A DNA stretch of 64,000 nt from Gluconacetobacter dulcium (lineage in GTDB: Bacteria > Pseudomonadota > Alphaproteobacteria > Acetobacterales > Acetobacteraceae), in the NCBI RefSeq assembly GCF_014174165.1, contig NZ_JABEQN010000007.1, forward strand, positions 1 to 64,000, in the 5' to 3' direction. A program made the position numbers and the translations under genes. The notes under the pieces are model-generated. The model saw only the letters and a list, made by a program, of their open reading frames with translations. It made no database searches and was not told the DNA's origin. Below are positions 143-63,228 of this stretch, piece after piece (the first letter of the stretch is position 1; the number at the start of each line of letters is the position of its first letter).

Positions 143-2926
143 TTACAGGGCGTAGTCGAGGTGCCAGAGGAAGGTGCGGCCGAACTCGATATAATCTTTC
201 TGATACTGGATGGCTTCGCCGCGGGTTGTGAAATAGGCCCAGTCATTCAGCAGATTGTTGCCGTCGAAGGCGACCTGGATGTTGCGGGTGATGTTGTAGC
301 CGACATGCAGGCTGAGGTTCCTGTTGTGCTGGACCCATTTGTCGAGCTGGTTGGAGCGCAGCGATTCGAGGTATTTTCCGCGATAGGACAGGGACAGCCG
401 GGCATCGACGCCGTATTTCCGGTAATTGAGCGACATATTGTAGAGGAGATTGGGCGCGTAAACGAGGGGCGTGTCCTTGGTGCGCCACGATTGCCCGCTG
501 TTGGCGCTGCTGCGCTGGAAGGTGACGTTGCCGGAGACGCCGAAGCCGTCGAGGAAATAGAGCGGGGACGCATGCGGGATCAGCCCCAGCAATGTCCGTG
601 ACGCGCTGAATTCGATGCCGTAGAGGCGGGCTTTCTTGCCGTTCTCCGGCTGGGTGATGTCGATGCTGCCGACTTCATTGGTGGCGGGGACATAGTCGCC
701 GTTGGTGAAGATGAAATTGCGGATCTGCTTGTAATAGCCGGCCACCGATATCATGCTGTTGGCGTCCATGTAATAATCGCCAGACAGGTCGAAATTCAGC
801 GCGCGGGCTGCCTTGAGGTTGGGGTTGCCCTGTGAGATCGCGATGATGTTGCCGGTGCCGGGATTGCGGGTGACCGTCTGGGAACCGGAGAGATAGGCAT
901 ATTCCGGCGCGGAGTAGCCGGTCCAGATCGCACCGCGCAGCAGAAGGTTGCGCGTGACGGGCAGGTTGGCCGTGATGCTGGGCAGGAAGACGCCGTAGCC
1001 CTTGTAGGAGGATGCGGGCGCCAGCGTATCGCCATCGACGTTGAAGAACGTGCTTTCGGTATTGCGCCGTTCGTAGCGCAGGCCGCCGATCAGGGACAAT
1101 CTGCCGAGTTCGATGTCGGTCATGAGATAGCCCGAGAAGACCCGTTCGGTCGTGTTCGTGTCGTTGCCATATAGGCTGGCGGCACTGGTTCCCGCGCCCG
1201 GCGTTGCCTGCATGGCCGTGCGGATCGCGTTGATGACGGCATCGCGCGAATAGATGGCGCCGTAATAATACCGGTTGCTCAGGATCTGGTTGACGGTGCG
1301 GTCGATCAGGCCGGACTGGGCGAGATTGAGCCCATCGAGCGATGTGCCCGAGAAATCGCCCTGCCAGAGCAGGTGATCGTAATAGCTGCGTGTGGAGTTG
1401 CGGAACTGGAAGCCGCCCTTGAAATATTTGATAATGTCGTTGACGTCGTATTTGATGTCCAGGTTGGTCGAAACGATCGTGTTGGTCGTGGCGCTACGTT
1501 CCAGGGACGCGCCGTCCAGCGGCAGCAGGGCCGGGTTGTATTGCACCGCGTTGGCGAACGGGCTGGCCGTTACCGTCGGGAAGCGGGGGTCGATGTGGCT
1601 CCAGCTTATGCCTTCATCGAAGGTCTTGTCATATTCCACCGAATATTCGTTCGGTGTCGAATCCTGGCCCCGGCTGACGCTGGCATTGAAGGTCAGGTGG
1701 AACCGGTCCTTGTCGAGTTTGCCGCCCCCCTGGAGATTGGCGAGATACTGATTGTCGTCCTCGACCTGAAATTCGCGGCCGAACAGGAATTTGGTCGGGT
1801 CCCAGATGCCGGCCGCGTTATAGTAGTTGCCGGTGTTGTTATATTCGGTCGTGTCCAGGTTGCCGGTGACCTGAAGGCGCGCATATTGGCCGTGCAGGTA
1901 GGCCGACCAGATATCCTCGTGATAATCGACGGCGAAGGAGCCGCCGACCCGCGCCTGGCGGGTGCGCCGATAGGCGAGGTCGATGCCCGGCAATTGCAGG
2001 CTGTTGAAATCGATCGCGCTCGTGCTGTCGGGGGCCTCGTGATAGGGGCGGTAGGCGCCGTCATTTTCGATTTCCTGCCCCAGGGTGTGATCGACGACGT
2101 AATAGCCCGAGAGATAGACGCCCAGACGGTCGTTGAGGAAGCGGCGCGCGCCATCGACCTGAATCTGTCCGCCGAACGAGGACTGGTCCTGCGACATCGC
2201 GCTGTCATTATATCCGGCGGCGGAATAGACCCGCAGCATCTGCGGTTTCTTGAAATCGAAGGCGGTCGGCGTCTTGAAGTCGATCGAGCCGGCGATGGCG
2301 TCGCCCATCATGTCCGGGGTCTGGGTCTTGGACACCGTGACCCCCGACATGCCGTACGGCTGAAGCAGGTTGAGCGACACGTCGCGGCTTTCGGAATTGG
2401 TGCTGGCGACCTTGGCCCCGTTGAGCATGAAATTGTTGTAGGTGCCGGCCAGGCCGCGAATGGTCACATACTGGCCCTGGCCCGTCGTCTGGTTCACGAT
2501 CGCGCCGACGCCCGGTATCTTGCCCAGGGAGTCGGCGATGGAACTGGTCGTCGAACTGCGGAGATCTTCGGCCGACAGGCTGTCGGTGATCCCGGCCAGG
2601 ACTCTCTTCTGCTGGATCGCCGTCCTGTCCGCGGCCGCCGCCGTGGCGGTGACGAGAATCGCCTCGGGTTTCGCGACATGCGGGGCGGACACATCCTTTT
2701 TCGCCTGGTCGGCCGAAGCGGGCGCGGCTGTGGGGCGCTTTCCCGGTCCGGACGAGGGGGGCGTGCTGTCGTCGGACGCTTTGTGGCTTGCCGCGAACGT
2801 GGGCCGATCGGCGAAGGCGAACGGGCCAATGAGTGTCGTCGTCAGCAGAAGGGTTGCCATGCGGGCGCGGCGGCGCGGGCCGGAGCCTGGCATCTGGGGC
2901 GTGGAGTGGTCGAGCGGAGAGGGCAT
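143..2926 (-). CDS. TonB-dependent outer-membrane receptor
   Basis: Outer-membrane 22-strand receptor for energised uptake of a scarce substrate. An N-terminal export signal is followed by a TonB-box-like stretch (EAILVTAT), a plug domain (DSLGKIPGVGAIV, then VTIRGLAGTYNNFMLNG) and a long beta-barrel ending in an aromatic-rich strand (FGRTFLWHLDYAL). The plug wording fits the TonB-Xanth-Caul subfamily (TIGR01782) rather than classical siderophore receptors. An ATG at 2956 is possible, but it sits 2 bases from a palindromic operator. The ATG at 2926 has a GGGAG box 6 nt upstream and is preferred. It is divergent from the DUF5690 transporter, and both promoters carry the same operator type as the phospholipase/HD-oxygenase promoter. 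The substrate is therefore inferred to be a phospho- or phosphonate compound rather than iron. Confidence 0.9.
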   Translation of the reverse strand: MPSPLDHSTPQMPGSGPRRRARMATLLLTTTLIGPFAFADRPTFAASHKASDDSTPPSSGPGKRPTAAPASADQAKKDVSAPHVAKPEAILVTATAAAADRTAIQQKRVLAGITDSLSAEDLRSSTTSSIADSLGKIPGVGAIVNQTTGQGQYVTIRGLAGTYNNFMLNGAKVASTNSESRDVSLNLLQPYGMSGVTVSKTQTPDMMGDAIAGSIDFKTPTAFDFKKPQMLRVYSAAGYNDSAMSQDQSSFGGQIQVDGARRFLNDRLGVYLSGYYVVDHTLGQEIENDGAYRPYHEAPDSTSAIDFNSLQLPGIDLAYRRTRQARVGGSFAVDYHEDIWSAYLHGQYARLQVTGNLDTTEYNNTGNYYNAAGIWDPTKFLFGREFQVEDDNQYLANLQGGGKLDKDRFHLTFNASVSRGQDSTPNEYSVEYDKTFDEGISWSHIDPRFPTVTASPFANAVQYNPALLPLDGASLERSATTNTIVSTNLDIKYDVNDIIKYFKGGFQFRNSTRSYYDHLLWQGDFSGTSLDGLNLAQSGLIDRTVNQILSNRYYYGAIYSRDAVINAIRTAMQATPGAGTSAASLYGNDTNTTERVFSGYLMTDIELGRLSLIGGLRYERRNTESTFFNVDGDTLAPASSYKGYGVFLPSITANLPVTRNLLLRGAIWTGYSAPEYAYLSGSQTVTRNPGTGNIIAISQGNPNLKAARALNFDLSGDYYMDANSMISVAGYYKQIRNFIFTNGDYVPATNEVGSIDITQPENGKKARLYGIEFSASRTLLGLIPHASPLYFLDGFGVSGNVTFQRSSANSGQSWRTKDTPLVYAPNLLYNMSLNYRKYGVDARLSLSYRGKYLESLRSNQLDKWVQHNRNLSLHVGYNITRNIQVAFDGNNLLNDWAYFTTRGEAIQYQKDYIEFGRTFLWHLDYAL

Positions 2927-2958
2927 CCTGGGCTCCCGGTTGGCCATGCGAGACATAA

Positions 2959-2972
2959 TTGGTCCATACCAA
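2959..2972. promoter_or_regulatory. GntR/HutC-type operator, TonB-receptor promoter
   Basis: TTGGTCCATACCAA, a 14-bp imperfect palindrome with TTGG/CCAA ends, placed immediately upstream of the receptor coding region. It shares the TGGTnnAnnCCA pattern with the sites at 3168 and 7471. From memory, PhnF of Mycobacterium binds TGGTATAGACCA-like sites, so the adjacent HutC-family regulator is the inferred ligand-responsive repressor. Confidence 0.65.
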
Positions 2973-3038
2973 AATGACTCGGATACGTATTGTTAAGAAT
3001 CAGTGACGAACCGGAGTGATGGCGTTTTTTACTTATAA

Positions 3039-3116
3039 ATGAAGAAAAAATGGCGTTCTTTCACGGGAGGCATGGTGGTGGTTCTGGTCGTGACGCTTGT
3101 CTTCATGCGTCAATGA
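3039..3116 (+). CDS. Possible 25-residue single-span membrane peptide
   Basis: A short frame in the divergent promoter region. It starts MKKKWRSFTGG, runs through a hydrophobic segment (MVVVLVVTLVF) and ends MRQ. The positive-inside N-terminus plus one hydrophobic span is typical of real small membrane proteins. No convincing Shine-Dalgarno precedes it, and the upstream TATAAA-like bases may instead be a promoter -10. It could be a chance ORF. It is recorded because it would be transcribed with the DUF5690 gene only if a promoter lies further upstream. Confidence 0.2.
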   Translation: MKKKWRSFTGGMVVVLVVTLVFMRQ

Positions 3117-3167
3117 TCCTGTCATAGAACCTTCATTCGGCAGGGGCGACGGCTGGTTATAAAATTG

Positions 3168-3179
3168 TGGTATATACCA
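3168..3179. promoter_or_regulatory. GntR/HutC-type operator, DUF5690 promoter
   Basis: TGGTATATACCA is a perfect 12-bp palindrome 11 bases before the chosen ATG of the transporter gene, just downstream of a TTATAAAAT -10-like sequence. This position would let a bound repressor block transcription initiation. It is the most symmetric of the three TGGTnnAnnCCA sites. Confidence 0.75.
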
Positions 3180-3190
3180 AATGGTGTCTG

Positions 3191-4480
3191 ATGAAATCGA
3201 GCTTCGTATCGCGTCTGCCCCGACCCGCCATGACGGCTGTTGGTGGCGTCGCCGGGTTTGCCGCCTATTTTTCCATGTACGCCTTTCGCAAGCCTGTCGC
3301 CGCCGACACGTTCGCGGGGGTGGCGCCGTTTCTGCATGGTCTGGATTATAAATCTGCCGTCATCATCATGCAGATCGCGGGTTATGCGCTTTCAAAGCTG
3401 ATCGGGATCCGCGTGGTCGCGCAGTTCGGCCGCACGGGGCGCGGCTATGCGATCATCGGGCTGGTATCGATTGCCTGGGCGGCGCTGATTCTGTTTGCCG
3501 TCGCACCCGCGCCATGGAATGCCGCGTTCTTTCTGCTGAACGGGTTGCCGCTGGGCATGATATGGGGCCTGGTCTTCAGTTATCTGGAAGGGCGGCGGGA
3601 GTCCGATATCCTGGGGGCGATCCTGTGCGCGAGCTTCATCTTTTCCTCCGGGGTCATGAAGTCGGTGGGAGAGGTGATGGTGCGAAGCGGCATCGGCATC
3701 TGGTGGATGCCCGCCGCCGTGGGCGCGGTGTTCTTTCCGCTGCTGCTGCTGTCGGTCTGGGCGCTGGAGAGCCTGCCGCCCCCCGATGCCCAGGACGAGA
3801 AGGAGCGCATGCCGCGCGTACCGATGTTCAGGGCCGAGCGCATGGCCATGCTGCGGGCGAACTGGATGATGATCTTCCCGCTTGTCGCCGGCTATGTGAT
3901 GCTGACCGCGATCCGGGATTTTCGCGATAATTTCGCGCCCGAACTGTGGCAGGCCGCCGGCTATCGGGATGTCGCGGCGCTCTTTACCGAAAGCGAAGTG
4001 CCGGTCGCCATCGGCGTGCTGGTGGTGCTGGCGGCGTTGAACCGGGTGCGCGCGAACCTGGCCGCCTTGCAGGCGATGCAGGTGCTGATCATCCTTGGCG
4101 CGCTGATGCTGGCGGCGGCGACCGCTTCCTTTCAATGCGGCCTGATTTCCGGGCTGGTCTGGATGGTGCTGTCGGGGATGGGGCTTTATCTGGCCTACAC
4201 GCCGTTCAATGCCATGCTGTTCGACAGGATGATCGCCGCGATCGGCAAGCCGGGCAATTCGGGTTTTCTGATCTATGTTTCCGATGCGGCGGGGTATTGC
4301 GGCAGTGTCGGGGTGATCGTGTCGCGCAATGCGTATGGCGCGCCGGGAAACTGGCTGTCGTTCTATGTTGCGTTTGCCTATGTCACGGCGGCGGTCGTGA
4401 CCGGCTTTGGCCTGCTGTCGCTGTTTGTGGCGCACCGGCGCCTGGGGGGAGGGGCGCCGGCGCGTGTCATGCGACCGTGA
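3191..4480 (+). CDS. DUF5690-family MFS-type transporter
   Basis: Twelve-span integral membrane protein of about 429 residues resembling the major facilitator fold. The N-terminus GVAGFAAYFSMYAFRKPVAADTF is characteristic of the DUF5690 family, whose substrates are unknown to me. The 'SMYAFRKP' stretch recalls the organophosphate:phosphate antiporter family (GlpT/UhpT), where an Arg in the first helix binds phosphate, so a phosphorylated or phosphonate substrate is reasonable inference. A GTG at 3167 is in frame but lies inside the operator region, so the ATG at 3191 is preferred. Its 3' end overlaps the convergent regulator gene by 14 bases. Confidence 0.8.
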   Translation: MKSSFVSRLPRPAMTAVGGVAGFAAYFSMYAFRKPVAADTFAGVAPFLHGLDYKSAVIIMQIAGYALSKLIGIRVVAQFGRTGRGYAIIGLVSIAWAALILFAVAPAPWNAAFFLLNGLPLGMIWGLVFSYLEGRRESDILGAILCASFIFSSGVMKSVGEVMVRSGIGIWWMPAAVGAVFFPLLLLSVWALESLPPPDAQDEKERMPRVPMFRAERMAMLRANWMMIFPLVAGYVMLTAIRDFRDNFAPELWQAAGYRDVAALFTESEVPVAIGVLVVLAALNRVRANLAALQAMQVLIILGALMLAAATASFQCGLISGLVWMVLSGMGLYLAYTPFNAMLFDRMIAAIGKPGNSGFLIYVSDAAGYCGSVGVIVSRNAYGAPGNWLSFYVAFAYVTAAVVTGFGLLSLFVAHRRLGGGAPARVMRP

Positions 4481-5204
4481 GATCGACCTCGATCCGGATG
4501 GCGTTGGCGCACCAATATTCCTGGTCATATTCGATGACCCGTCCGCGTGCGTCGTAGCTGGTGCGGATGACGAGAAGCCCCGGCGTGCCGGATTTGACCC
4601 CCAGACATTCCGCCGTGTGCCGCACCAGAGCGCATGCGCGCATTTCGACATGGTTGCGCGTCACGACCAGCCCATAGACATCGCGTAGGACGCCGCTGAG
4701 CGACCCGTTGAGATTGTGACGCGCCAGGCCGGGGGCGAGCGCCGGATTGATGGTGATGTCCTCGACCAGGACCGGCCGTTCGTCGATGCTGCGGCGGCGT
4801 TCGACCCGATAGAGGGGGTTGCGGACGCCCTTGCCGAAAATATCCAGGATGGCGGGCGGCTGCTTTTCGGTCTTGACCTGAAGGGTTTCCGTGGCCGGCA
4901 GGCGGCCTTGTTCCGCCACATAGGTCATGAAGCCGGACCAGCGGGTGGGGTCGTACGTGACGGGTTTGGGCGACACGTACCAGCCGCTGCGGTCCTTGCG
5001 GTAGATCAGACCCTCGGCTTCCAACTGGGACAGGGCCTCGCGGACGGTGCCGCGGGCGCTGCCGATCAGTTCATGATATTTGCGTTCGGACGGTAGCCGG
5101 GCGCCTGATGACAGGATGCCGGCCTCGATCTCGTTCGCGATCTGGTTGCGCAGGCGAAGATAATGGGGTTCGGCACTGTCGTTTTCGGAATCGGTTTGAA
5201 ACAG
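4467..5204 (-). CDS. GntR/HutC-family transcriptional repressor (apparent CTG start)
   Basis: N-terminal winged helix-turn-helix (LRNQIANEIEAGILSSGARL, PSERKYHELIGSARGTVREA, LSQLEAEGLIYR) followed by a UTRA effector domain (NPLYRVERRRSIDERPVLVE, then IRTSYDARGRVIEYDQEYW), which is the HutC/PhnF layout of about 245 residues. No ATG, GTG or TTG occurs in frame upstream of the complete HTH. A CTG at 5204 is preceded by AGGAG with an 8-nt spacer and is the only well-placed initiator. An out-of-frame ATG lies only 1 nt from the same AGGAG. The gene follows the phospholipase gene by 69 nt on the same strand. It is therefore probably co-transcribed from the operator-bearing 7471 promoter and negatively autoregulated. 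Confidence 0.85.
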   Translation of the reverse strand: MFQTDSENDSAEPHYLRLRNQIANEIEAGILSSGARLPSERKYHELIGSARGTVREALSQLEAEGLIYRKDRSGWYVSPKPVTYDPTRWSGFMTYVAEQGRLPATETLQVKTEKQPPAILDIFGKGVRNPLYRVERRRSIDERPVLVEDITINPALAPGLARHNLNGSLSGVLRDVYGLVVTRNHVEMRACALVRHTAECLGVKSGTPGLLVIRTSYDARGRVIEYDQEYWCANAIRIEVDLTVA

Positions 5205-5273
5205 GCTGCATTCTCCTGATGATGGTGCGACGGTCGGAAATGTCGTCCAGCATCACGGATGGCGGATACAGCG

Positions 5274-7418
5274 TCAAGTATGACGCGGAGCGGCCGGCGC
5301 GGACCGGTCGTCCATGGCGGTTTCCAGCGCCGGGTCCGTTTTCGTCGGTCTGACGGCACCATACAGGCGGGCCTGGAAGGACGGGTCGGTGGTGCTCCGG
5401 ATTGTCAGGGCATACCAGCCATCGCTGTGCGTCAGCGGGACCGTGACGGTGTGGACCGCGCCGGCCAGGAGCACGGTCTGGTGGAAAGTGGAATGGGCGG
5501 GCGTGGTGTCGTCCGTGAGCTGGATCTGCTGCGGCAGGGGGGTGAGGCCGATCAGCGACAGACGGAGCGACTGGCCCGATCCGGCCTCTGCCCGCACCGC
5601 GACGGGCAGGCGCGGGGAGGTGTCGCAATGATGTCTGATGAAGCCGTCGGGGCCGCGCACCGTAAAATCGTGGCGCGGATCGCTGCCGGTTTCCGCCCAT
5701 AAGCGGGCATGGTGATCGTGACCGGCCCCGACCGTGAAGAAGAGCGGGGCGTTGCGGTCGCTGTTGTCATGGACGCTGAGGCATATGCCGACGGTGCCGC
5801 TATTGGCGATCAGGAGGCTGGGGGCGCCCTCGGCATCGGGCACGATGTCCACCGTGAAATCGTAAGGCAGGGGGCGGACGGGGCGTTGGCCGGCCATCTG
5901 GCGGGGCTGGCGCTGCGTGGCCGGAATGGCGAAGGCCCGGCCGGCCAGGGACCGCGCGATCCGGCTTTGGGTGTCGCGGATATGGGGGAACGTGAGGGGG
6001 ATGTCGGCGGTGGGCCGGGAGAAATCGAACGCGCTGAGAAGATCGCCGCAGACGGCGCGGCGCCAGGGGCTGATATTGGGTTCCATTACCCCGAAACGCC
6101 GTTCGAGGAACCGCAGGACGGATGTGTGATCGAATAATTGTGAACAGATATAGCCCCCGCGACTCCATGGGCTGACGATGAGCGCGGGCACGCGGATGCC
6201 CAGGCCGATCGGCTGGGCGCCGGGGTGGGGGGTACCGGGCGGGTACTGTTTCGCCTCGCCGGCGGTCGAGACGGTGCTGAAACCCCGATCGGGGGTCAGG
6301 GGGGGAACCGGGGGCGCCATATGGTCGAAAAAGCCGCCGGCTTCGTCGTAGATGGTGATGAAGACCGTGCGGGCGAACGTCTCGGGGTGATCGACCAGGG
6401 CTTCGATCAGTTTCGCGGTCACAAATTCGCCGCGCGCCGGAATGGCTTCCGGATGTTCCGACAGGTCCTTTGCCGTGACGATCCATGAGACCTGCGGCAG
6501 TCGGCCGGCCGCGATATCCGCGCGGAACGCCTCGACAAGCTGGGTGCCGTCCGAACGGGTGCGATCGGCGCCGCTGCGATGCTCGCTGACCCATGAGCGG
6601 CCACGGGCATACAGGCCGGACTCGCGCGGGCAGGGCCGGAAAGCCGGGAAGACCGAGAGCAGGTTGTCGCCGAAATTATCGTATTCCTGGTAAACTTTCC
6701 ACGCGATCCCTGCATTTTCCAGGCGTTCGGCGTAGGTGTGCCAGTTATAGGCGTCGGCGCGCAGCGGCTGGTCCTGTGCCATGTCGGCGCTGGGGGTTTC
6801 GGACTCGCCGTAATTGTCCATTTCCGGATCGCCGCCGACCGTGCCGCCGCCATTGCAGCCGGAGAAGAGGTGCAGGCGGTTGGGGTAGGTCTGCGTCATC
6901 GTGGACGCATGCCATGCATCGCAGAGGGTGAAGGCGTTGGCCAGATCGTAATAGAACGGAAGGTCGCCCGCGGTGAAATGCAGCATGCGCTGCCGCATTT
7001 CGTGCGTGGCGCCCCATTGGTCGAAACGCCCGCCCGCGAAGATGGTCAGGTTGGCCAGGTGGCTCTGGTCGGCGCCATCGACCGTGAAGGAGCGGGTGCT
7101 GCGGCTGTCGCCATGATAGGGCAGGACATAACCGTCGGGATGGTCCGCCGAGGGCTGGCACCATACCGGCCTGCCGCCCGGCAGCCGCAGGGGGTGGGGG
7201 TCGGAGAAGCCGCGCACCCCGTTGAACGCACCGAAATAATGATCGAACGAGCGGTTTTCCTGCATGTGGATGACGACATGCGCGACGTCCTGCACCGAGC
7301 CGGTCCGATGGGCGGGCGCGATGGCGAGGGCGCGTTCGACCAGGCTGCGCATGAAGGGGAGCCCGACGAGGGAGGCGCCGGCCGTGGACAGAACCCGACG
7401 GCGTGACGGACCGGACAT
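5274..7418 (-). CDS. Tat-exported phosphocholine-specific-type phospholipase C
   Basis: Protein of about 714 residues in the phosphoesterase (AcpA/PLC) superfamily. It begins with a twin-arginine signal (SRRRVLSTAGASLVGLPFM) and contains the metal-binding MQENRSFDHYFG motif near residue 55 and the nucleophile region STMTQTYPNR. Two C-terminal beta-sandwich repeats resemble the DUF756 pair of bacterial phosphocholine-specific phospholipases C (TIGR03396-like). The enzyme would hydrolyse phosphatidylcholine, sphingomyelin or related head-group lipids in the periplasm or outside the cell. The ATG at 7418 (AAGGAA box) is preferred over 7454. It is divergent from the HD oxygenase across a palindromic operator and upstream of the GntR gene. 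The head-group preference is not deducible from sequence alone; phosphonolipids are possible. Confidence 0.88.
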   Translation of the reverse strand: MSGPSRRRVLSTAGASLVGLPFMRSLVERALAIAPAHRTGSVQDVAHVVIHMQENRSFDHYFGAFNGVRGFSDPHPLRLPGGRPVWCQPSADHPDGYVLPYHGDSRSTRSFTVDGADQSHLANLTIFAGGRFDQWGATHEMRQRMLHFTAGDLPFYYDLANAFTLCDAWHASTMTQTYPNRLHLFSGCNGGGTVGGDPEMDNYGESETPSADMAQDQPLRADAYNWHTYAERLENAGIAWKVYQEYDNFGDNLLSVFPAFRPCPRESGLYARGRSWVSEHRSGADRTRSDGTQLVEAFRADIAAGRLPQVSWIVTAKDLSEHPEAIPARGEFVTAKLIEALVDHPETFARTVFITIYDEAGGFFDHMAPPVPPLTPDRGFSTVSTAGEAKQYPPGTPHPGAQPIGLGIRVPALIVSPWSRGGYICSQLFDHTSVLRFLERRFGVMEPNISPWRRAVCGDLLSAFDFSRPTADIPLTFPHIRDTQSRIARSLAGRAFAIPATQRQPRQMAGQRPVRPLPYDFTVDIVPDAEGAPSLLIANSGTVGICLSVHDNSDRNAPLFFTVGAGHDHHARLWAETGSDPRHDFTVRGPDGFIRHHCDTSPRLPVAVRAEAGSGQSLRLSLIGLTPLPQQIQLTDDTTPAHSTFHQTVLLAGAVHTVTVPLTHSDGWYALTIRSTTDPSFQARLYGAVRPTKTDPALETAMDDRSAPAAPRHT

Positions 7419-7470
7419 ATCTTTTTCCTTGCCATGGTGCGACCGAGGAGCCAATAAATAGGCCGCAAAT

Positions 7471-7484
7471 CTGGTATAGTCCAG
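7471..7484. promoter_or_regulatory. GntR/HutC-type operator, PLC/HD-oxygenase divergent promoter
   Basis: CTGGTATAGTCCAG, a 14-bp near-perfect palindrome lying between the divergent phospholipase and HD-oxygenase genes. It fits TGGTnnAnnCCA and differs by one base from the TGGTATAGACCA site I recall for PhnF. A single site could control both transcripts and, through read-through, the repressor itself. Confidence 0.75.
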
Positions 7485-7509
7485 AATGAAATCTGAGCGT
7501 CGGGTGACT

Positions 7510-8091
7510 ATGAATATTGTCGATCGGATCTATGACTTTTTCGCCGAATTTGGTGGTCAGGATTATGGCGAAGATGTTTCGCAGCGTGATCATGCCCTTC
7601 AGTGCGCATGTCTGGCGCAGCGGGACGGAGCGCCTGATACGATCGTCGCCGCGGCGCTGCTGCACGATATCGGGCAGTTTATCGATCGGGCCGGCGCGCA
7701 GGCGGAAATGTCGGGAACGGACGGGTATCACGAGCACCGGGGCGGGGCGCTGCTGCGGCCTTATTTTCCGTCGTCGGTGATCGCGCCGATCGTGATGCAT
7801 GTCGATGCCAAGCGGTATCTTTGCGCGCGTGAGCCGGGATATCGCGAAGGGCTGAGCGCGGCGTCCGAACTGAGCCTGCGGTTGCAGGGCGGACCGTTCA
7901 CGCCTGAGGAAGCCGAGGCGTTCGAGAAGAATGTCCATTTTCACGACGCCATTCAGGTCCGCCGCTATGACGATGCCGGCAAGATGCAGGACATGGCGGT
8001 GCCGCCGCTGGAATCCTATCGCGATCTTCTGATCCGGCTGGTGGCCCAGGGCGCGGATCGCCCCAGGCGGGAAGCGGCTTCGGACAAATGA
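7510..8091 (+). CDS. PhnZ/TmpB-like HD-domain oxygenase (phosphonate-associated HDIG protein)
   Basis: About 193 residues with the metal-ligand pattern of the mixed-valent di-iron HD oxygenases: H28 (DHALQ), H52-D53 (LLHDIG), H76 (HEHRGG), H97 (MHVDAKRYL) and a C-terminal RRYDDAGK Asp. This matches the phosphonate-degradation-associated HD family (TIGR03276; PhnZ, TmpB), which cleaves the C-P bond of 1-hydroxyphosphonates. The substrate-lid Glu is present (E21, seven residues before H28). The usual Tyr three residues before it is Asp18, with Tyr19 adjacent. No PhnY/TmpA 2-oxoglutarate hydroxylase is nearby. Start chosen at MNIVDR; 7486 is an in-frame alternative that begins right at the operator. 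Confidence 0.8.
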   Translation: MNIVDRIYDFFAEFGGQDYGEDVSQRDHALQCACLAQRDGAPDTIVAAALLHDIGQFIDRAGAQAEMSGTDGYHEHRGGALLRPYFPSSVIAPIVMHVDAKRYLCAREPGYREGLSAASELSLRLQGGPFTPEEAEAFEKNVHFHDAIQVRRYDDAGKMQDMAVPPLESYRDLLIRLVAQGADRPRREAASDK

Positions 8092-61581: not shown

Positions 61582-63228
61582 TTACGGCGTGGCAGATGCC
61601 GGGTTGGGCTGGTTGTCGGTGCGGCGGATGAAGTCGGCGATGTTGTCGTGCAACTGGGTCAGGGCCGGGATGTTGGCGTAGACCATGTGGCCTGACTGGT
61701 ACTGGCGGAATTCGATATTCTTCTGCAAGGCGGCCGGGATCGGCAGGTGGCGCATTTCGTAGACCCCTTCGTAATACGGGGTTGCCAGGTCGAAATAGCC
61801 GGCATTGAGCATGATTTTCAGGGTCGGGTTGGTCTTCATCGCCTCCGCGAGGTCGGGCATCACGTTGGCCGGGCCATCGGATTCGGTGCCGCCGCCGGCT
61901 GCGTGGTGGAAGTTCCAGTGCTGGATGTCGATTTCCGGACGATAGGTCAGGCCGTCACCGTAATTCAGCGTCTTGCGCACGTAGTCGTTGAACAGGGACA
62001 CGTAAGCCGAACTGATGGCGGTCGATTGCGGGTCGTATTCGGCTTCCTTGCTCATCGGGTCCAGAGCGGGGCCGGAGAAGCGGGTGTCGAGGCGGCCGGT
62101 CGTCATGCCGTCGTCCGATTGCAGGGTCTTGGAGAATTCGCCGCCGTCGATGCGCAGGTCGGCGCGGCGGATATAGTCGGCGGGTAGGCCGGTATAGGCG
62201 TGCAGCCGCTCGATGATCCGTGCCCGGTCGGCATCGGGCAGGGCCGCGCCCTGCTGGAGCGCCGCCAGATAGTCGGTGCTGGCGAAATGCTCGACCTCGG
62301 CCAGGAACGCCTTCAGGTCCGCGGGCTGCTGCGGCAGCTTGTGGTGATACCAGGCGGTGGCGGCGTAGGTGGGCAGGGCCAGCACGAATGGTTCGTCCAT
62401 GCCGGGATTCAGCGCCGGTTCGTCCACGCTGTTGTCGTAGCTGAGGATCTGCGACAGCAGGATGACGCCGTTGAAGTCGATATTTTCCTGATTTTGCAGG
62501 TCATTGACCAGAACGGCCGAGCGCATGGTGCCGTAGCTTTCGCCGAACAGATATTTCGGCGAGTTGTAGCGGCCGTATTTCGCCAGGAACTGGGTAATGA
62601 AGCTGGTGAAGGCCTGGCCGTCGGCATCCACGCCCCAGAACAGCTTTTCCTTGTCCTTGCCGTTGAGGCGGCCGAAGCCGGTGCCCGGTGCGTCGATGAA
62701 CACCAGATCGGTGACGTCGAGCAGGCTTTGCGGATTGTCGATCAGCCGGTAGGGGCTGGCGGGGGTGTGGGTGTCGTCGTTCGTGACCACCCGGCGCGGG
62801 CCGAAGGCGCCCATATGCAGCCAGACCGAGGATGAGCCCGGCCCGCCATTATAGACGAAGGTGATGGGGCGGGAGTCCGGGCGGCTGTCCTTGCGGAAAT
62901 AGGCGACATAGAACATCGACGCCGTGGCGTCGGGGTTGCCGTCGATGGCATGGGCGTCGCTGCCCGGCGTCTGGTGCTGGACGGTCTCGTCGGAATCGTC
63001 CCAACCATGGGGGTGCACGACCAATGTGCCGGCGACGGCCTGGTAGGCGACGGGTTTGCCGTCGATCGTGATCGTGCCGCTGCTGGTCCGTTCGATGGGT
63101 TGGGCGGGGTGGGCGGCATGGGCGGGATCGGGATGGGCCGCGTCCGGGTGGTCGATGGCGGCGCGGGCCGGCGACAGGCCCAGGCAGATGAGCGAGGCGG
63201 ACAGCAGCAGGGTCAGGCGTGTGGTCAA
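61582..63228 (-). CDS. Exported S10-family serine carboxypeptidase
   Basis: A 548-residue protein with an inferred TTG start and GGAGG 5 nt upstream. Signal peptide TTRLTLLLSASLICLGLSPARA; a His/Ala/Pro-rich linker follows. The alpha/beta hydrolase fold shows FVYNGGPGSSSVWLHMGAFG (oxyanion), the nucleophile Ser in PKYLFGESYGTMRSAVLV, Asp near MLNAGYFDLATPYY and His in EFRQYQSGHMVYANI. This is the complete S10 catalytic set. It acts outside the cytoplasm on peptides. It follows the metallo-hydrolase gene by 16 nt on the same strand. Confidence 0.9.
   Translation of the reverse strand: MTTRLTLLLSASLICLGLSPARAAIDHPDAAHPDPAHAAHPAQPIERTSSGTITIDGKPVAYQAVAGTLVVHPHGWDDSDETVQHQTPGSDAHAIDGNPDATASMFYVAYFRKDSRPDSRPITFVYNGGPGSSSVWLHMGAFGPRRVVTNDDTHTPASPYRLIDNPQSLLDVTDLVFIDAPGTGFGRLNGKDKEKLFWGVDADGQAFTSFITQFLAKYGRYNSPKYLFGESYGTMRSAVLVNDLQNQENIDFNGVILLSQILSYDNSVDEPALNPGMDEPFVLALPTYAATAWYHHKLPQQPADLKAFLAEVEHFASTDYLAALQQGAALPDADRARIIERLHAYTGLPADYIRRADLRIDGGEFSKTLQSDDGMTTGRLDTRFSGPALDPMSKEAEYDPQSTAISSAYVSLFNDYVRKTLNYGDGLTYRPEIDIQHWNFHHAAGGGTESDGPANVMPDLAEAMKTNPTLKIMLNAGYFDLATPYYEGVYEMRHLPIPAALQKNIEFRQYQSGHMVYANIPALTQLHDNIADFIRRTDNQPNPASATP

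Follow-up and report, generated by a model that had tools for sequence, protein, structure and literature searches.

A predicted GntR regulon in Gluconacetobacter dulcium that joins a phospholipase C, a DUF5690 permease and an HD-domain oxygenase, with a probable role in phosphonolipid scavenging

The window analysed here, the first 64,000 nucleotides of Gluconacetobacter dulcium contig NZ_JABEQN010000007.1, begins with a cluster of five genes. They encode, from left to right, a TonB-dependent receptor (TBDR, minus strand), a DUF5690 permease (plus), a GntR/HutC-type repressor (minus), a phospholipase C (PLC, minus) and an HD-domain diiron oxygenase (HD, plus). A first-pass annotation had named all five families; the receptor, permease and phosphocholine-specific phospholipase C (PC-PLC) assignments stand above their family cut-offs, and the repressor (PhnR) and oxygenase (TIGR03276) fall short of theirs. 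Three palindromic operator sites and a Pho-box-like site lie between the genes (Table 1).

Table 1. Features of the gene cluster, with positions in the window
Feature	Position	Strand	Description
TonB-dependent receptor (TBDR)	143..2947	-	TIGR01782 463.5 bits, cut-off 310
Operator site 1, TTGGTCCATACCAA	2959..2972		Directly upstream of TBDR gene; unchanged in G. liquefaciens
Pho-box-like site CTGTCATAGAACCTTCAT	3119..3136	+	Upstream of DUF5690; 12/14 match to consensus
Operator site 2, TGGTATATACCA	3168..3179		Perfect palindrome; 11 bp 5' of DUF5690 start
DUF5690 permease, major facilitator type	3191..4480	+	PF18943 457.5 bits, above cut-off of 25
GntR/HutC-type repressor gene, PhnR-like	4467..5204	-	GntR and UTRA Pfam domains; probable CTG start
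PC-PLC family enzyme	5274..7418	-	TIGR03396 634.5 bits, above cut-off of 580.25
Operator site 3, CTGGTATAGTCCAG	7471..7484		Between divergent PLC-gntR and HD starts
PhnZ/TmpB-type HD-domain diiron oxygenase	7486..8091	+	TIGR03276 206.2 bits; shortened YGE loop

The three matching palindromes claimed by the first-pass annotation are present at 2959, 3168 and 7471 and all fit TGGTNNANNCCA, those of sites 1 and 3 being imperfect at the centre. Together they serve four starts, those of TBDR, DUF5690, PLC-gntR and HD. On both strands of the 64 kb, TGGTNNANNCCA has five matches where 0.87 are expected, and 100 shuffles gave a maximum of 3; site 2 is counted twice among the five, and one further match lies at 61674. 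A genome-wide search for TGGTATANACCA, one mismatch being allowed, gives 26 match rows (four in the cluster) versus 14 for a reversed-pattern control. All 22 of the 22 sites outside the cluster fall within open reading frames (ORFs); one of these frames, in L159, shows weak codon bias. Judged at this threshold, the regulon therefore appears confined to the cluster, and a wider regulon in this genome was dismissed. The window operator also fits the consensus of the HutC subfamily, NyGTMTAKACNy, as given in PMC4494728. Gluconacetobacter liquefaciens carries the same five genes in the same order, with 79–92% protein identity; its three sites are identical to those of the window, and the middle of the TBDR–DUF5690 gap has drifted and is poorly conserved.

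DUF5690 occurs in 2 of 14 genomes of the genus, which makes the cluster accessory; within the class it is rare, with 5 holders among 385 genomes (this one counted). A scan of the named-genome collection with an alignment of six DUF5690 proteins returned at least 571 loci; the best 80, mostly from Sphingomonadales and Caulobacterales, were kept. With L048, L050 and L051 added, and L049 dropped as a copy of L082, 83 loci were studied, with full flanks in 53 and incomplete flanks in 30. Neighbours were called by tblastn at 100 bits or more and the families checked on representatives; for GntR the tblastn count (38) replaced an ORF-based count of 32, in which some antisense frames had been picked. 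The neighbours comprise a PbfD-type oxidase at 58 loci, PhnX at 51, HD at 43, GntR at 38, PLC at 34 and TmpA at 4. DUF5690, GntR, PLC and HD occur together in 28 loci, and a TonB receptor is also present in 23. Both PbfD and PhnX share the locus in 21 of these 28 relatives, and neither is found in five, as in the window: G. liquefaciens (L052), Sphingopyxis panaciterrae (L054), two Caulobacter loci (L092, L097) and L055, whose status is unsure since its contig ends beside DUF5690. Among the 53 full-flank loci the odds ratios are 58 for HD with GntR, 21 for PLC with GntR and 13 for HD with PLC; those of PLC with PbfD and PhnX (1.7 and 2.0) are not significant. In HD loci of other Acetobacteraceae and alphaproteobacteria (L040–L042 were read at length), the other four genes are not nearby.

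Operator sites follow the repressor gene across these loci. With up to two mismatches to TGGTATAGACCA allowed, a site precedes DUF5690 in 36 of 38 loci with GntR versus 2 of 45 without, a Fisher p of about 1e-18 when the kinship of loci is ignored; 40 shuffled consensuses gave means of 0.20 and 0.42, respectively, and a maximum of 2 in either group. Restricting the count to complete flanks gives 30/32 versus 0/21. The two GntR-free loci with a site sit on contigs of 6.5 and 10.6 kb, from which gntR may be cut off, and in the two GntR loci that lack one (L070 and L073) PLC lies directly before DUF5690. This contrast with GntR-free loci of the same DUF5690 gene is hard to explain otherwise. For PLC and HD, only matches above 150 bits with enough upstream DNA were counted: the PLC start has a site in 27/30 cases with GntR versus 0/4 without, and the HD start in 23/23 versus 0/2. 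Receptor genes were counted from ORF starts because tblastn matches begin far inside the gene (these gave 1/13); sites were found at 17/23 with GntR versus 0/12 without, a comparison that has no shuffled control and in which the 12 receptors mostly belong to another cluster.

A site also separates HD and PLC in each of the 18 head-to-head pairs. Fifteen of them carry exactly TGGACTATACCA, the reverse complement of window site 3, and the pair in G. liquefaciens has TGGACTATACCA in the other orientation, matching that of its genes. Overall, sites with at most one mismatch number 84 in 757 kb of GntR loci versus 11 in 728 kb of the others, and six of 38 loci have an operator upstream of gntR itself. 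The first-pass proposal of a single regulon is thus strongly supported by comparative genomics, with sites tracking the GntR gene at the DUF5690, PLC, HD and TBDR starts. The search that it recommended, for the five-gene set plus operator in other genomes, recovered both, with the same five genes also in S. panaciterrae DSM 27164 and the operators conserved in G. liquefaciens. On this comparative evidence we take the predicted regulon to be real.

DUF5690 appears to be under a second control. The Pho box consensus is CTGTCAT-4-CTGTCAT, and a box matching at least 11 of 14 positions lies within 300 bp before DUF5690 in 20/38 GntR loci and 28/45 others; 60 shuffled boxes gave means of 0.88 and 1.13 and maxima of 4 and 7. 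Across the loci, DUF5690 thus looks like a phosphate-starvation gene that has come under additional GntR control in some of them, with Pho regulon membership and PhoB binding predicted from the box. An operator precedes DUF5690 in 36 GntR loci; in 28 of these, exactly 5 nt separate it from the end of a box of at least 10/14, and in 32 from that of a box of at least 9/14. Forty shuffled boxes gave a total mean of 0.97 (maximum 13) and a mean of 0.72 for the best single gap (maximum 9). This 5-nt gap suggests a composite Pho box/GntR operator, through which phosphate starvation and the substrate would both exert control. The TATAGA of the operator would then fall about where a -10 element is expected, so that GntR could block a PhoB-driven promoter. 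Pho boxes at other starts are weak (PLC 8/30, HD 5/34 and PbfD 4/32, with control maxima of 4, 3 and 4), and in the window the best stretches in the proper direction at the TBDR, PLC and HD starts match just 8–9 of 14 positions.

The repressor carries both domains of the GntR/HutC type, PF00392 and PF07702, above their cut-offs. Its best NCBIfam model is TIGR03337 PhnR, at 238.6 bits against a cut-off of 296.75, and it is also below the PhnF cut-off; it may still act like a repressor of the PhnR/PhnF type. The PhnR model and the fit of its operator to the HutC consensus (PMC4494728) are points of likeness to those repressors, from which it differs in its scores and in its predicted control of PLC, the TonB receptor, DUF5690 and HD. 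Ahead of the DNA-binding part, the gntR frame contains no ATG, GTG or TTG, the first TTG lying at 5024. The likely start is a CTG at 5204 (codon 5202–5204, minus strand) with AGGAG 8 nt upstream; the CTG is kept in G. liquefaciens, and the same stretch in the 38 GntR loci contains an ATG in 36 and a GTG in one. A frameshifted or dead gntR was ruled out: the frame is uninterrupted and shares 92% identity with that of G. liquefaciens, but needs the CTG start. Gene callers may trim the DNA-binding domain because of this non-standard start.

The window HD just misses TIGR03276 (cut-off 214.6), whose positions 2–179 of 179 it covers, and it matches TmpB (6npa) with an E-value of 1.7e-37. Its residues H36, H60, D61, H82, H105 and D162 correspond to H34, H58, D59, H80, H104 and D161 of PhnZ and retain the diiron ligands of the PhnZ/TmpB-type signature, H...HD...H...H...D (PMC8177086). 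The YxxE loop, which contacts the substrate amine in PhnZ and TmpB according to the same source, is YGE in the window protein and in 34/34 HD proteins of GntR loci, versus YxxE in 4/4 TmpA-linked HD proteins; in the window protein the position of PhnZ His62 is occupied by Gln. YGE is not restricted to the regulon, for it is also seen in 4/5 further HD proteins linked to DUF5690 and in some of the 23 relatives retained (of 24) from outside DUF5690 loci. The 35 regulon rows of the HD tree form one group with 4 further DUF5690-linked rows (support 90/92), and the TmpB group (96/96) is separate. An 18-row group whose support is not strong (85/89) places the Gluconacetobacter pair with sphingomonad-type sequences, which suggests, without proving, transfer from that group.

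The window HD belongs to the same diiron family as TmpB of the TmpA/TmpB system of Leisingera caerulea, and TmpA and TmpB-like genes lie beside DUF5690 in 4/83 loci. The window protein differs in its YGE loop, its place outside the TmpB tree group, its ties to PLC and GntR, and its score with the TmpB equivalog NF049941 (181.1 bits, cut-off 300). A TmpB-type pathway for trimethyl-aminoethylphosphonate was dismissed here, the genome having no TmpA above cut-off. In two other loci (L110 and L124), DUF5690 directly adjoins a TmpA gene, identified in L124, and a TmpB-type HD gene; DUF5690 of these loci is a candidate importer of trimethyl-aminoethylphosphonate. With the oxidative PhnY*/PhnZ pathway for 2-aminoethylphosphonate (2-AEP; AEP), the window shares conserved metal ligands and predicted oxidative C-P cleavage, and it differs in a substrate loop one residue shorter and in a cluster where no gene for a hydroxylase was recognized, in a search that used no model specific to PhnY*.

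An AlphaFold (AF2) model of DUF5690 from six sequences has a mean pLDDT of 83.5. Its best fold match in the PDB is the human glucose-6-phosphate transporter G6PT1/SLC37A4 (E 2.1e-8, TM 0.63–0.66), which fills 14 of the 50 listed rows, among them rows 1 and 2, and none of the 14 ranks below 26. A sequence link to solved transporters was dismissed, none being found in the PDB. DUF5690 is a candidate importer of phosphonates or organophosphates. AepP of Pseudomonas putida BIRD-1, a 2-AEP permease demonstrated with mutants, belongs to the organophosphate:phosphate antiporter family and, like DUF5690, is a major-facilitator permease beside phosphonate genes (PMC8316502); it is a GlpT relative by sequence, unlike DUF5690, which forms a separate Pfam family. 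At L050 (8012–9136 and 11453–12361), DUF5690 lies beside genes for a YfcE-like phosphodiesterase, a glycerophosphodiester phosphodiesterase, a TonB receptor and a DeoR-type regulator.

Of the remaining cluster proteins, PLC has solved relatives (9gy2, 9gye) and a twin-arginine-like signal. Hydrolysis of phosphatidylcholine is predicted from its family, and the substrate may instead be a phosphonolipid. For the receptor, the ATG at 2947 (MANREP), common to G. liquefaciens, is favoured over 2956, and HD has an alternative start at 7510. Genes for a TPR protein, a sulfotransferase-like protein and an Asp/Asn beta-hydroxylase-like protein recur beside the TonB receptor in L074, L089, L099 and others.

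Phosphonate catabolism, as proposed in the first-pass annotation, gains support from the neighbours of DUF5690 (PbfD-type oxidase 58/83, PhnX 51/83, HD 43/83), and the phosphonate assignment of the regulon is likely. PbfD enzymes are described as oxidizing N-methyl-AEP and AEP to phosphonoacetaldehyde (PMC10590968), from which PhnX frees phosphate (PMC8154272). This hydrolytic pathway is encoded at the locus of most of the four-gene relatives (21/28), unlike the present Gluconacetobacter genome, where both enzymes are below their family cut-offs. A locus that combines PbfD, PhnX and HD could process AEP and N-methyl-AEP as well as a hydroxylated form. PMC8154272 records 1-hydroxy-AEP from the polysaccharide of Acanthamoeba castellanii and a report of it in lipids of Bdellovibrio stolpii.

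We favour, as the probable function of the cluster, a substrate-induced and phosphate-controlled regulon for scavenging phosphonolipid head groups, probably of aminoethylphosphonate types. Lipid cleavage outside the cell, uptake through the outer membrane, transport over the inner one and C-P cleavage in the cytosol, as set out in the first-pass annotation, are consistent with the gene families; the lipid substrate and each transport step we infer. The exported PLC would detach the head group of the lipid, the TonB receptor would take up either lipid or head group through the outer membrane, and DUF5690 would carry the head group over the inner membrane; HD would then split its C-P bond to yield phosphate. 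GntR bound to TGGTATAGACCA-type sites would repress the genes until a phosphonate occupied its UTRA domain, and the Pho box before DUF5690 would add phosphate-starvation control. HD is the sole C-P enzyme recognized in the cluster, so it probably acts on a substrate that arrives 1-hydroxylated, such as 1-hydroxy-2-aminoethylphosphonate, or on one that an unrecognized enzyme hydroxylates. A naturally hydroxylated substrate in Gluconacetobacter is the simplest reading; the alternative has a possible candidate in the genome's one PhyH-domain protein.

Several observations weigh against this assignment. All functions are assigned by computation, with HD and GntR both below their NCBIfam cut-offs and DUF5690 without a PDB match by sequence even at E 10. 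In this genome the best hits to PbfD (73.1 bits, cut-off 285.1), PhnX (25.9, cut-off 220), PhnW (89.2, cut-off 400.8) and PbfA (229.2, cut-off 525) all fall short, as does the sole TauD-family protein for TmpA (28.6, cut-off 400), and the PhyH-domain protein matches no NCBIfam model at E 0.001. A C-P lyase gene is present (PhnJ, 449 bits), so the cluster is not the only C-P route of the strain. None of the six partner genes is found at 11/83 DUF5690 loci, which, together with the phosphodiesterase neighbours at L050, means that DUF5690 may be a broader organophosphate carrier. The loci share ancestry, so their counts are non-independent and the p value is too small. The PLC and HD operator controls have means of 0.5 and maxima as high as 11/30 and 12/23. 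Few PbfD genes of GntR loci (7/32) and no PhnX genes (0/29) have their own operator, as expected only if they are read through from DUF5690. The Pho box of the window lies 31 nt, not 5 nt, from site 2, and a 12/14 box at the same place in G. liquefaciens has the same spacing. We regard the phosphonolipid assignment as plausible.

A more specific form of this proposal is possible, if rather doubtful as a whole. DUF5690 would be a new phosphonate permease family, PLC would free head groups of the 1-hydroxy-2-aminoethylphosphonate type, and the YGE-loop HD would cleave them directly with no need of a hydroxylase. A PhoB-plus-GntR gate, built as one composite promoter element in most relatives, would control this dedicated and undescribed phosphonolipid-scavenging pathway.

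Ordinary phospholipid scavenging would account for a PLC that exceeds the cut-off of a phosphocholine-specific family. PLC would then free phosphocholine or phosphoethanolamine for import by DUF5690, whose best fold match is a sugar-phosphate carrier and which L050 ties to glycerophosphodiester breakdown, and HD would have a side role, such as removal of toxic phosphonate analogues, or be a phosphatase. We consider this unlikely, given that the commonest neighbours are tied to phosphonates (PbfD-type oxidase and PhnX), that HD retains the PhnZ/TmpB diiron ligands and that its gene sits with TmpA in 4 loci. Somewhat less credible still is uptake of free aminoethylphosphonate, with PLC recruited to recycle phosphate from ordinary lipids and a repressor shared only because both yield phosphate. 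DUF5690 does occur with PbfD and PhnX and without HD, PLC, GntR or TmpA in 15/83 loci, and Pho boxes precede it without GntR too (28/45); PLC and HD nevertheless share one operator in all 18 head-to-head pairs, and PLC is more strongly associated with GntR (odds ratio 21) and HD (13) than with PbfD or PhnX (1.7 and 2.0). That the palindromes arose by chance or serve another GntR/HutC protein, leaving the five genes without co-regulation, is very improbable: HutC-family regulators share similar sites, so another member could bind (PMC4494728), but the sites track this GntR gene across loci, are conserved in G. liquefaciens and exceed the shuffle controls.

No described system with this combination was found by title or abstract in the literature searched, in line with the first-pass annotation; the term DUF5690 is absent from that literature, which omits most subscription papers. 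Beyond the earlier reading, our analysis adds the Pho box, the PbfD and PhnX partners elsewhere, the wide occurrence of the cluster, the unusual start codon of gntR and the absence from this genome of a recognized TmpA-type hydroxylase. The composite Pho-box/GntR promoter lends itself to a clean test of dual control, and the substrate of the YGE-loop subgroup of oxygenases is accessible to direct assay. If the favoured phosphonolipid assignment is true, DUF5690, so far a transporter-like family of unknown function, would acquire a role, a single regulon would couple the breakdown of lipids to the cleavage of C-P bonds, and alphaproteobacteria would have a means of recovering phosphorus from phosphonolipids.

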